From assembly GCF_006088715.1 (NCBI RefSeq), contig NZ_CP030771.1, positions 7,438,001-7,502,000 of the forward strand: a stretch of DNA of 64,000 bases. Direction: 5' to 3'. How positions within the stretch are numbered: position 1 is the stretch's first letter; each line of letters begins with the position of its first letter. The translations under genes and the position numbers were made by a program. Shown piece by piece: positions 57,506 through 61,111 of this stretch. A model generated the notes under the pieces. It had not been told where the DNA came from and did no database searches. It saw only the letters and a list, made by a program, of their open reading frames with translations. The DNA comes from Streptomyces sp. YIM 121038. Its GTDB lineage: Bacteria > Actinomycetota > Actinomycetes > Streptomycetales > Streptomycetaceae.

Positions 57506-57757
57506 ATGGTGCGCACTCCTCTGACCCCCGAAGAGCGCGAGCGCGGTGAGCGGCTCGGCCGACTGCTGCGGGAGGCGCGTGGCGCGCGGAGCATGGTGGA
57601 GGTCGCCGCGAGCGCCGGCATCTCCGCGGAGACGCTCCGCAAGATCGAGACGGGCCGGGCGCCGACGCCCGCGTTCTTCACGGTCGCGGCGCTCGCGGTG
57701 ACCCTGGAGCTGTCTATGGACGAGGTGGCGCGGACGTGCGTCCTGGTCCCGGTGTGA
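57506..57757 (+). CDS. Small XRE-family regulator
   Basis: An 83-residue helix-turn-helix protein (GRLLREARGARSMVEVAASAGISAETLRKIETGRAPTPAF is the DNA-binding core). The ATG at 57506 is preceded by TACACT at 6 nt; an ATG eight codons earlier would add residues outside the domain. It probably represses map through the palindrome between them. Its last 44 bp overlap the end of the opposite transporter gene. Confidence 0.88.
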   Translation: MVRTPLTPEERERGERLGRLLREARGARSMVEVAASAGISAETLRKIETGRAPTPAFFTVAALAVTLELSMDEVARTCVLVPV

Positions 57758-58925
57758 GGCCCGCGGGGCGGACCTGCGCCGAGCGGCGGGCCAGGAGGGC
57801 CGCGCCGCCCCCCGTCGCGAGCGCGAGCGCCGTCAGCGCGGCGCTGACCCACAGCGGCGAGCGGTAGTCGAGCCCGGCGTCGAGCGCCCGGCCCCCGGCC
57901 CAGGGGCCCACCGCCGCGCCGATGTTGAGCGCCGCCGTGGCGAAGGCCCCGCCCAGGGTGGGCGCCGCCGTCGCCGCGTACAGCGCGCGGGCGATCAGCG
58001 TGGAGCCCACCGCGAACGACAGCGTGCCCTGGACGAAGGCGAACGCCACGGTCGCCGCGGTGTGCTGGGCGGTCAGTGCGAAGGCCGCCCACCCCGCGAG
58101 CAGCGCGAGCGAACCGGCCACGAGCAGCGGCAGCGGACGGCTGTCGGCCACGCGCCCGCCGAGCGTGACCCCGGCGAAGGAACCGAGCCCGAACAGCGCG
58201 AGAAGGCCGGGCATCCAGGTGTCCCCGACCCCGGCGACGTGCGTGGCGAGCGGTTCGAGATAGGTGAAGGCGCAGAACGTGGCGCCGTTCACGAGCGCGC
58301 CGAGCAGCAGCGTCACCAGCAGGTGCGGGGCGCGCAGGGCGGCCAGCTCCGAGCGCGCGCCCGCCGGTGCGCCGCCGGGGGAGTCCGACGGCACGGAGCG
58401 CGCCACCGCGACGACGGCGGGCAGCGTCACCAGGGCCACCGCCCAGAACGCGGCGCGCCACCCCCAGAGCTGGCCGAGCAGCGCGCCGCCCGGCACGCCC
58501 GCGACGCACGCGAGCGTGGTGCCGCCGAGCAGCACCGACGTCGCCCGGCCCTTGGCGTCCGGCGCGACCAGGCCCGTCGCGGTCGCGAGCGCCACCGCGA
58601 GGAACCCGGCGTTGGCGAGCGCGCCGACGACCCGGGTGGCCAGCAGGACGCCGTAGCTCGTGGTGAGCGCGCCCACCACGTGGGCGAGGAGGAAGGCCAC
58701 CAGGAAGGCGAGCAGCGCCCGGCGGCGCGACCAGCGCAGGCTCAGGACCGCCATCAGTGGCGCCCCGACGACCATTCCCACGGCGAACGCCGAGGTCAGC
58801 GCGCCTGCGGCGGAGACCGGCACGTCCATGTCGGCGGCGATGTCCGACACCAGGCCGGACAGCATGAACTCGGACGTGCCCTGGGCGAACACGGCGAGGG
58901 CGAGCAAGTAGAGGACCAACGGCAC
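57714..58925 (-). CDS. cmlR: Chloramphenicol-type efflux MFS transporter (Cmx/CmlR family)
   Basis: A 403-residue 12-span exporter. FAQGTSEFMLSGLV, FAVGMVVGAPLMAVLSLRW, RVVGALANAGFLAVAL, GRATSVLLGGTTLACVAGVPGGALLG and VQGTLSFAVGSTLI match the S. lividans CmlR/Corynebacterium Cmx proteins closely. I chose the GTG at 58923-58925: CTGGAG lies 8 nt upstream and the protein then begins MPLVLYLLALAVFAQG, as in known members; the longer frame starts inside a hairpin. Likely inducible through its long leader. Converges on and overlaps the XRE gene. Confidence 0.92.
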   Translation of the reverse strand: MPLVLYLLALAVFAQGTSEFMLSGLVSDIAADMDVPVSAAGALTSAFAVGMVVGAPLMAVLSLRWSRRRALLAFLVAFLLAHVVGALTTSYGVLLATRVVGALANAGFLAVALATATGLVAPDAKGRATSVLLGGTTLACVAGVPGGALLGQLWGWRAAFWAVALVTLPAVVAVARSVPSDSPGGAPAGARSELAALRAPHLLVTLLLGALVNGATFCAFTYLEPLATHVAGVGDTWMPGLLALFGLGSFAGVTLGGRVADSRPLPLLVAGSLALLAGWAAFALTAQHTAATVAFAFVQGTLSFAVGSTLIARALYAATAAPTLGGAFATAALNIGAAVGPWAGGRALDAGLDYRSPLWVSAALTALALATGGGAALLARRSAQVRPAGLTPGPGRTSAPPRP

Positions 58926-58949
58926 AGCGGGACTCCAGAGCCACGTCAG

Positions 58950-58985
58950 CCACTCCGTGGGCACGGCGAACGGCCCACGGAGTGG
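58950..58985 (-). other. 13-bp hairpin just upstream of the exporter ribosome-binding site
   Basis: CCACTCCGTGGGC (58950-58962) and its exact complement (58973-58985) with a 10-nt loop. On the mRNA it ends 12 nt before CTGGAG. Candidate attenuator stem. Confidence 0.65.
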
Positions 58986-59079
58986 ATGAGGAAAAGGGGA
59001 AAGGTCCGTGACTGCGGCGCGGCGGTGGTCCCGAGGCTTGGCCGCCGCGGAGCCCCGTGCGGGGCTGCTGCGCGGCGTC

Positions 59080-59170
59080 GGCCGGATCGGTCGGCTCGGA
59101 TCGGCCGACTCGGCTCAGTCGGCTCGGATCAGCCGGATCGGCTCGGGTCAGCCGACTCGGCTCGGATCAG
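59080..59170. repeat. Imperfect tandem repeat in the exporter leader
   Basis: About four copies of TCGGCTCGGATC(A/G)G interspersed with AGCCGACTCGG over 90 bp. It covers the end of the leader peptide and the space before the hairpin. On the mRNA its GAGCCGA/TCGGCT units can pair with each other in alternative ways. Confidence 0.75.
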
Positions 59171-59228
59171 GAGCGAGGCCACCGGAGCGCGCCGGTGGCC
59201 GGCGTCTGTCGGCTTCGGGACTGGACAT
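59148..59228 (-). CDS. 26-residue leader peptide of the efflux gene
   Basis: Begins MSSPEADRRRPPARSGG and ends at TGA 59148-59150. TAGTCT (59235-59240, reverse strand) lies 6 nt before the ATG, so the ORF should start at the transcript's 5' end. Chloramphenicol resistance genes in several bacteria use ribosome stalling on a leader peptide; the position fits such a device. The peptide is Arg/Pro-rich, often slow to translate. Confidence 0.55.
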   Translation of the reverse strand: MSSPEADRRRPPARSGGLAPDPSRVG

Positions 59229-59371
59229 GTGCGCAGACTAGCCACGCTTCCCGCCGCACGTCCACGTAATTAACGAGGGCTCCGGAAAACCACGTGTAGC
59301 CGTCCCGTAACGCGTCTGGTGTTATCTTCCGGACCGGCAGACCCTAGTCTCCCAGGGGACGGTGCCCGACG

Positions 59372-61111
59372 ATGGCAGTGGGACAACTCCCGGAACGAAT
59401 AAGGGAGTTCGCACGGTACTTGAACGACCTCCTGGCGCGCCTCGACCAGAGCGCCGGGTGGTGCGGCGTGTTCTGGTCCCGCGACCCCGACGGCATGCGG
59501 GCCTGCCTCGACGGCACCGAGGTGCCGCCCTGGGACGTGGTGCAGGCGCTGCTCCACGACCTCGCGGCCGACGTCGGCGTGGGGGTCGCGCAGGCGGAGA
59601 CCGGCCGCGCCCGGTCGCTGCACGCCGCGTCCGTGGCGGCGCACGACGATCGCCCCGGCGGCCGTGAACTCCTCAGCGACCGGCTCGACATGATGCTCCA
59701 GGAGCAGCGGTTCGCGGTCGAGCGGGAACAGGAACTCGCCCGCGCCCTCGCCCTCGCCGCGACGCCCGACGAGGTGGACCGCATCCATCTCGACCTGGCC
59801 TGGGTGCGCGACGACCACGAGCGCGCCGCGGCGCGCTGTGGCGAGCTGCGCCGGCGCATGGAGCGGCTCGACCGGGCGCGGGCGCCGCGCTGGGTGGACT
59901 TCGGCGGCGCCCCCTCGGACGGCGGGGACTTCGACGTCAGGGAGTTCCCCGCCGACCCGTCCGGCACCGCGGCCGGGCCCCGCGCCGCCGCCGACCGGGG
60001 CGCCGCGTACGACGGTCAGGGCGGCGCGTCCGACGACGACCGCGCGCCCTCTTCCGGCTACGACGACGACGGCCGTGCGCTCCCCTCCGGCTACGACGAC
60101 GGCCGCCGTGCGCCCTCCTCCGGCTACGACGGCGACGACCGTGCGTTCCCCTCCGGCGACGGCGGTGACGCCCGCGCGCTCTCCTCCGGCTACGACTACG
60201 ACGGTGACGGCCGCGCGGAGGCCTACGACCGTGACGGCCGCGCCGCCGCCTACGGCACGGACGGCCACGACACCGCCTGCGGCCACCCCCAGGGCCCCGA
60301 GGACCCCGATCCGCCCCGCAGGGACGCCGAGCGCGCGCCCGGCCAGGACGTGGCCCCGCGGGTTCCCGCGCAGCCCGGCCGCTCCCGGCTCGGGGTGCGG
60401 CGGCGCCCGCGCGGCGCCCGGTTCGCGGGCCTCGACGGCGCGGGCGACGACACGGCCGGGCCCGTCGCCGAGCCGACCGCGGCGGCCGCCCCGGGCACCC
60501 CGCGCGGCGCCCGCTACGTCCAGGCCGTCGACGCGCCGCCGCGGGCGCACCCGGAGCCGCCGGCCGCCCCGGACGGCGCCGCGGCCGACGAGCGCGCCAC
60601 CGTCGACGCGGTCAAGGCCCTCATCCGGCTGCGCGGCGAGGGCCGCAGCGGCGAGGCGCACGGCGTGCTCGTGGAGGCGGCCGGGTGGCCCGCCGCGCGG
60701 CTGCCGCTGTTCGCCGACGAGCTGCACCACGCGGGCCTCGCGGCCGACTGGGCGACCCTGCTGTGGGAGGCCGCCTCGCTGCCGCCCGACCGCCTCGTGG
60801 CCGTCGCCGACGCGCTCGCGGGCGCGGGCCGCGCCGACGACTGCCGCAAACTCCTGCGCCAGGGCGTGGCCCGGCCCGCCCCGGAGATCGCCGAGTCGCT
60901 GCTCGCGCTCCTGGACGCGGGGCGCGAACGCGAGGCCCGCGCGCTCCTTGACGCGTATGTGCGCGTGCGCAGCGCCGAGGACGTCGCGGCCTGCGCGCAC
61001 GCCGACGCGCAGCGGCTCATCCCGCTGCTCCTGGAGATGGCCAAGGGGGTCTCCGACGCGCACCACTGGGACCTCGTGCACGCGCTGCGCGTCGCGGGCT
61101 TCACCACCTGA
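59372..61111 (+). CDS. Large hypothetical protein with low-complexity centre
   Basis: A 579-residue protein. N-terminal 170 residues form a folded, partly coiled-coil region (REFARYLNDLLARLDQSAGWCGVFWSRDPDGM; long helices around LDMMLQEQRFAVEREQELARAL). Residues about 224-295 are repeats of S-S-G-Y-D-x-D-(x)-R-A; the linker to 400 is Pro/Ala-rich. The C-terminal 180 residues are helical repeats (VDAVKALIRLRGEGRSGEAHGVL, LLALLDAGREREARALL), TPR/HEAT-like. Probably a Streptomyces-specific scaffold. -10-like TAGTCT at 59345-59350. Confidence 0.8.
   Translation: MAVGQLPERIREFARYLNDLLARLDQSAGWCGVFWSRDPDGMRACLDGTEVPPWDVVQALLHDLAADVGVGVAQAETGRARSLHAASVAAHDDRPGGRELLSDRLDMMLQEQRFAVEREQELARALALAATPDEVDRIHLDLAWVRDDHERAAARCGELRRRMERLDRARAPRWVDFGGAPSDGGDFDVREFPADPSGTAAGPRAAADRGAAYDGQGGASDDDRAPSSGYDDDGRALPSGYDDGRRAPSSGYDGDDRAFPSGDGGDARALSSGYDYDGDGRAEAYDRDGRAAAYGTDGHDTACGHPQGPEDPDPPRRDAERAPGQDVAPRVPAQPGRSRLGVRRRPRGARFAGLDGAGDDTAGPVAEPTAAAAPGTPRGARYVQAVDAPPRAHPEPPAAPDGAAADERATVDAVKALIRLRGEGRSGEAHGVLVEAAGWPAARLPLFADELHHAGLAADWATLLWEAASLPPDRLVAVADALAGAGRADDCRKLLRQGVARPAPEIAESLLALLDAGREREARALLDAYVRVRSAEDVAACAHADAQRLIPLLLEMAKGVSDAHHWDLVHALRVAGFTT

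Follow-up and report, generated by a model that had tools for sequence, protein, structure and literature searches.

The exporter gene at positions 57714 to 58925 (minus strand) of the window, by which we mean the whole 64,000-nucleotide stretch of Streptomyces sp. YIM 121038 DNA analysed here, is preceded by a leader that we regard, with a probability of about 0.7, as a translational attenuator that senses chloramphenicol by way of a leaderless ORF and has a probably WblC-activated promoter. Drug-sensing attenuation had been proposed in the original prediction, and the comparison of leaders supports it as the likely purpose. The same comparison points to a conserved peptide, promoter elements, a hairpin at a fixed position and an alternative pairing between two segments, 2 and 3, as the parts of the system; from these we infer the transcript start, the stalling, the control by WblC, the opening of the ribosome-binding site and the induction.

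The exporter, a protein of 403 amino acids, scored 519.5 bits against the Cmx/CmrA model NF033135 of NCBIfam and so passed the family threshold of 400; it also matched Pfam MFS_1. Against the CmlA/FloR model it reached 27 bits (cut-off 450), which places it in another exporter family. It is thus a Cmx/CmrA-family exporter, with chloramphenicol export suggested by the family name. The longest ORF in its frame starts further upstream, at GTG 58964; the corrected start proposed earlier, GTG 58925, is the one at which the relatives begin (consensus MPFALYxLGLAVF), and a Shine-Dalgarno sequence, GGAG, can be read before it at 58936-58933. The nearest named exporters among the best 80 of 568 loci belong to S. 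lasiicapitis (79% identity in the best segment) and S. aureoverticillatus (83%). A second exporter of the same superfamily, with 48% identity, lies about 2 kb beyond the window (G000:C1:7434862-7436031), and the leader pattern gave no match in its 4.2-kb locus (L031).

The 26-codon leader ORF that had been described is present on the minus strand from ATG 59228 to the stop at 59148 and reads MSSPEADRRRPPARSGGLAPDPSRVG, with codons 1-9 as its conserved part. Codon 10 is CGG in the window and TAG in the near relatives L073 and L194-L196; since these relatives stop after codon 9, the greater length in the window is secondary and incidental. Leaders of nine codons made up 47 of the 75 tabulated among those from the best 80 of 568 loci. 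Compared with dinucleotide shuffles, the leader together with 33 nt of the exporter gene has the more stable predicted fold (z -4.2; 0/100). Three elements had been overlooked: a 9-bp hairpin at 59200-59177, the pair of AT-rich box and -35 element (59273-59259), and a conserved block around 59032-58998.

Distribution of the leader was assessed by a protein-similarity scan for Cmx loci, which confirmed at least 568; the best 80 of these were used, and this set therefore consists of close relatives. Comparison with other cmlR and cmx genes, which had been suggested as a check, was made with this set, and the leader with its peptide was found at 79 of these 80 loci, in many named genera; at the one locus without it (L264) only 26 nt of upstream DNA were at hand. 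A strict pattern gave 66 of the 79 leaders and a looser one gave 9, both fixing Pro4 and Glu5 and leaving residue 6 free; the remaining four (L209, L216, L217 and L255), with Lys or Asp at residue 5, were picked by eye. An earlier relative search had shown the leader in 19/19 loci with exporter identity of at least 54% (L001-L019), and the pattern had no match in the other 18 loci of that search (L020-L037), which hold more distant exporters and paralogues. A leader-start pattern occurred in 124 of 295 genomes of the genus, and a reversed control gave 9 occurrences, counted from the listing. Removal of exact duplicates brought the places found from 138 to 132, and an exporter lies downstream at 110 of them; these 132 places are uninformative on residue 6 because the pattern itself fixes Ala or Ser there. 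Among the 22 places without exporter, 17 were not leader-like (three were re-inspected, the others judged from the listing) and five were leaders (L050, L098, L119, L130 and L155). In these five the leader was kept and the downstream exporter gene lost or replaced.

Outside the genus, true leaders were found at 6 of 29 fetched loci, in three families (7 of 30 including the genus). In a plasmid collection all four loci viewed had the leader: one of Nonomuraea, one of Embleya and two transposon-type cmx genes. Both of the latter (L162 and L163), which lie beside an IS5564-family transposase, carry the leader MSSPESDRSGVVGHTASPLNH of a separate subtype, here called subtype C. One further leader, L193, holds an insertion with inverted-repeat ends (GGGCCTGTCCGGCGGATC ... 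GATCCGCCGGACAGGCCC) between the leader stop and the hairpin.

The leaders share the consensus MSSPE[A/S]xR (79 leaders from the best 80 of 568 loci). In this set Pro4 is invariant, although fixed by the pattern for 75 leaders; residue 5 is Glu in 75/79; 78/79 have Ser, Asp, Glu or Asn at residue 7; and residue 8 is Arg in 78 and Leu in one, never Gly. At residue 6, which the patterns left free, 68 leaders have Ala and 11 have Ser, so that all 79 leaders from the best 80 of 568 loci carry one or the other. Synonymous variation occurs at codons 2-6 of these 79 leaders despite the conservation of the amino acids. According to the accessible text of PMC8066774, chloramphenicol arrests ribosomes with Ala, and less so Ser or Thr, as the penultimate residue, provided that the A site does not hold Gly-tRNA. 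By this rule the leaders are predicted to stall ribosomes when Ala6 or Ser6 is the penultimate residue, and their codons agree with a drug-dependent stall in both respects, penultimate residue and an A site without Gly. In the window the predicted stall codons are at 59213-59205 (minus strand), with Ala6 penultimate, Asp7 in the P site and Arg8, encoded by AGA (59207-59205), in the A site.

An unexpected feature is the codon used for Arg8. The rare AGA stands there in 75 of the 79 leaders from the best 80 of 568 loci; the exporter genes of these loci contain 1365 Arg codons, 10 of them AGA. Among window-type leaders of the genus AGA was found in 51/52. Subtype C leaders have R, E, K, T or D at residue 8 (58/58), encoded by AGG for all 27 Arg and otherwise by GAG, AAG, ACG or GAC. 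The conserved AGA could be explained by a rare-codon pause or by a constraint at the RNA level.

The original prediction placed the start of the mRNA at the leader ORF, with TAGTCT 6 nt upstream of its ATG. This hexamer is present at 59240-59235, and the spacing among relatives lends support to a leaderless transcript. In all 79 leaders from the best 80 of 568 loci a TANNNT lies 5-8 nt ahead of the start codon, compared with 5 of 2627 other ATG or GTG codons in the same stretches; in a set of 176 leaders, 172 have it 6-8 nt ahead. Such a distance between -10 element and start codon implies leaderless transcription, and the leader ORF is thus probably leaderless. When 172 promoters were aligned on the -10 element alone, two motifs emerged that had not been selected for: TKGMC, separated from the -10 element by 18 bp, and 3 bp upstream of it a GAAA.C box. 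This is the layout given for WblC-activated promoters in the part of PMC7157823 that was available: GAAAWY, 3 bp, TKGMNN, 16-19 bp and TANNNT. A WblC-like box with at least 4/6 matches, within one base of this spacing, precedes 60 of the 79 leaders from the best 80 of 568 loci and 10.5% of control positions. The leader family thus has the WblC/WhiB7 promoter layout. In the window the -35 element TGGACG (59264-59259) lies 18 bp from the -10 element and 3 bp downstream of the candidate box TTAATT (59273-59268), which fits GAAAWY at only 4/6 positions. The promoter is probably activated by WblC, judging from these motifs.

Downstream of the predicted stall site lies the overlooked hairpin (hairpin 1), composed of segments 1 and 2 (GGCCACCGG / CCGGTGGCC), with 9 bp and a 6-nt loop. 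In 113 of the 114 window-type leaders, searched from nt 25 to nt 36, its 5' arm starts at nt 28-30; given the footprint of a ribosome, one stalled at codon 7 should reach this arm. The 3' half of the hairpin may instead pair with a downstream segment. In the window the candidate segment 3, GGGACCACCGCCGCGCC, at 59032-59016, could pair with segment 2 and the hairpin loop, and the block around it (59032-59003) aligns in the near relatives L073, L194, L195 and L196. The duplex of segments 2 and 3 was computed at -21.2 kcal/mol, against -18.4 for hairpin 1; for the window alone this pairing was not better than that of shuffles (p 0.67). Tested one by one against shuffles, duplexes reached p 0.05 in 12/50 and 17/64 leaders, and in 44/53 of group C, which in this test includes one window-type leader (L178); L115 was left out, and named leaders outside 80-450 nt were dropped (66 to 64).

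Taken over the 114 leaders of the window subtype, the pairing of segment 2 with its own segment 3 was the better one except in 1 of 2000 permutations that swapped the partners. As the named and unnamed sets may share species (2 identical leaders among 115), the swap test was also run on 52 dereplicated window-type leaders, where the own pairing was again the better one except in 2/5000; it was above the column mean in only 68/114 leaders. Subtype C was represented by 52 leaders, 46 from the genus (56 before those outside 140-200 nt were dropped) and 6 from elsewhere. Its 2:3 helix has 94.8% standard pairs, compared with 26-55% when slid, and 8 doubly changed cells, equalled by 0/500 shuffles, although only 2 pairs change on both sides (176/500 shuffles). 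The 3:4 helix, in which the Shine-Dalgarno CGGAG takes part with its first bases, is 93.6% paired against 43-58% when slid and has 6 pairs that change on both sides (0/500 shuffles), with similar counts of doubly changed cells in the slid versions. Helix 1:2 is 94.2% paired and varies too little for covariation beyond that of shuffles in these leaders. Moreover, the first leader codons can pair over 6-7 positions with the exporter start in 45/52 subtype C leaders. In L102, L110 and L131, also of subtype C, the anti-Shine-Dalgarno pairing seems by eye to be shifted in register (CCGAGA with TCTCGG).

Base-pair probabilities for the window and for L073 show the Shine-Dalgarno region pairing, among other partners, with GGACCTTTCC (59007-58998), a candidate anti-Shine-Dalgarno segment; in the window they reach 0.49 per base. 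A stall was also simulated. In 46 subtype C leaders it raised the mean openness of the ribosome-binding site from 0.326 to 0.461 (shuffled, 0.362 to 0.422); 29 leaders rose by more than 0.1 and 2 fell, compared with 11 that rose in the shuffled means. In the window openness changed little, from 0.36 to 0.45, and the values for relatives were 0.17 to 0.18 (L073), 0.18 to 0.17 (L196), 0.13 to 0.18 (L003) and 0.05 to 0.32 (L194). Masking of the ribosome-binding site is thus supported by pairing in subtype C, and in the window folding predicts little opening and no clear release. Because long GC-rich leaders fold poorly in silico, this result neither proves nor excludes the model.

According to the model that we propose, the transcript would begin at or beside the leader ATG. 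Without drug, the ribosome would traverse the leader and hairpin 1 would re-form from segments 1 and 2, so that segment 3 and its flank could base-pair with segment 4, the Shine-Dalgarno region, and little exporter would be made. In the presence of drug, the ribosome would stall once Ala6 or Ser6 is the penultimate residue, when its P site holds codon 7 and its A site codon 8. The 5' arm of hairpin 1 would then lie under its leading edge; segment 2, thus freed, would pair with segment 3, and the ribosome-binding site would open.

The original prediction gave this switching role to a repeat array, in which alternative pairing among GAGCCGA-type copies would set access to the exporter. The array itself is real: Tandem Repeats Finder reported overlapping arrays of GAGCCGA/CCGATC repeats between 59073 and 59170 (minus strand), with a best score of 89, although the exact GAGCCGA copies number five (59091-59163) and not about four. 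It sits within the leader and can fold strongly, which speaks for a role of this kind. However, the window leader is the only one of 168 with at least two GAGCCGA copies, and array and 13-bp stem are both missing from the near relatives L073, L194, L195 and L196, whose other blocks align; L073 keeps a 28-nt remnant similar to the 3' part of the array. A switch formed by the array thus found no support and appears highly improbable; restriction to the window leader and to a single place in its own genome led us to reject it. A search of 199 genomes of the genus matched 59 of them at E <= 0.001, the own genome included; as few candidates were scored per genome, we do not read this figure as the number of genomes with a homologous array. 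In the window as a whole GAGCCGA is about as frequent as expected (24 copies against 22.9), and the unusual feature is its clustering rather than its total number. The stem was correctly described as perfect, with 58985-58973 pairing with 58962-58950 around a 10-nt loop, and it ends 13 nt before GGAG. Among the 168 leaders it is the only perfect stem of this length within the 90 nt that precede the start; that of L248 measures 12 bp. The array is therefore best seen as local and probably not the switch; in the window it would act as a spacer between segments 2 and 3, and the stem would be a local addition. The conserved elements are MSSPE[A/S]xR, the hairpin at leader nt 28-30 and the downstream segment that can pair with its 3' half.

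The leader might also act on transcription, with the stalled ribosome preventing an intrinsic or Rho-dependent terminator between leader and exporter. Streptomyces are5sc and tiaA, as well as lmrC, are reported to be under ribosome-mediated transcriptional attenuation (in the available part of PMC12421871), actinobacterial attenuators without U-runs have been described (as excerpted from PMC8079986), and Rho would find room in leaders that reach several hundred nt. A scan of 58900-59400 found no terminator-like site, however, so that an intrinsic terminator in the window leader was rejected, and the last helix of subtype C takes in the first bases of the Shine-Dalgarno CGGAG. We consider this alternative unlikely, though the best of those weighed against masking of the ribosome-binding site. 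It is less probable still that the leader ORF is a translation-coupling or standby element only, and that the drug response comes from the WblC-type promoter alone. The strong conservation of the WblC-like box and of the -10/-35 spacing would agree with this, but a promoter-only response needs neither the amino-acid conservation of codons 2-6 amid synonymous change nor the competing helices, and Ala or Ser at residue 6 in 79/79 leaders from the best 80 of 568 loci would be superfluous to it.

The attenuator favoured here resembles that of cmlA; in the accessible text of PMC8876359, the latter has a promoter of its own and a leader of 9 aa, and alternative stem-loops mask the start of a chloramphenicol exporter. 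Both combine such an exporter with its own promoter and a short leader peptide, and alternative stem-loops around the ribosome-binding site are predicted here too. The stall motif of cmlA, KNAD (in the available part of PMC10192921), has Ala followed by Asp, as in EAD of the window. The cmlA leader, however, has its own Shine-Dalgarno sequence, whereas here the -10 element stands 5-8 nt before the start codon; the exporter family and the peptide differ as well, and the WblC-like box and AGA at codon 8 set the present system apart. We therefore say that it works like cmlA and is not a member, because of the other exporter family, the other peptide and the lack of room for a leader Shine-Dalgarno. 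From the transposon-borne cmx genes the window differs in its hairpin, whose sequence is not that of subtype C.

In promoter layout the likeness is to WblC-activated genes of Streptomyces coelicolor (a GAAAWY-like box, 3 bp, a TKGM -35, an 18-bp spacer and TANNNT), and the accessible portion of the WblC paper has no mention of a cmx or cmlR leader (PMC7157823). The ABC-F genes are5sc, tiaA and lmrC also use uORFs that sense ribosome-targeting drugs, within the same genus, and are5sc is a member of the WblC regulon; as far as the available text describes them, they are transcriptional attenuators with start-codon stalls and other peptides (PMC12421871), whereas here a stall at codon 7, with masking of the ribosome-binding site, is predicted. 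A search of 58850-59320 against Rfam had no hit up to E = 1. No description of a cmx or cmlR leader, nor of its peptide strings, was found in the CC-licensed papers searched. Older papers deal with S. lividans cmlR, Rhodococcus fascians cmr and Tn5564 cmx and may already describe leaders.

A more speculative extension, which we put forward tentatively, is a drug sensor with two keys. WblC, as a general activator under antibiotic stress, would turn on the transcript, and the leaderless nine-codon arrest peptide would admit translation only for drugs that stall after Ala or Ser; the fixed rare AGA in the predicted A site would slow this step and sensitise the stall, in a module that occurs across actinobacteria and travels with transposon-borne cmx. 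The conserved AGA codon poses the question whether a rare A-site codon tunes drug-dependent arrest. The comparison directs attention away from the repeat array, which is conspicuous but private to this leader, towards the parts that are conserved. If the proposed model is true, actinobacterial chloramphenicol exporters would gain a defined and conserved sensor, the WblC stress regulon would be tied to a drug-specific second step, and transposon-borne cmx would carry its own regulation along.
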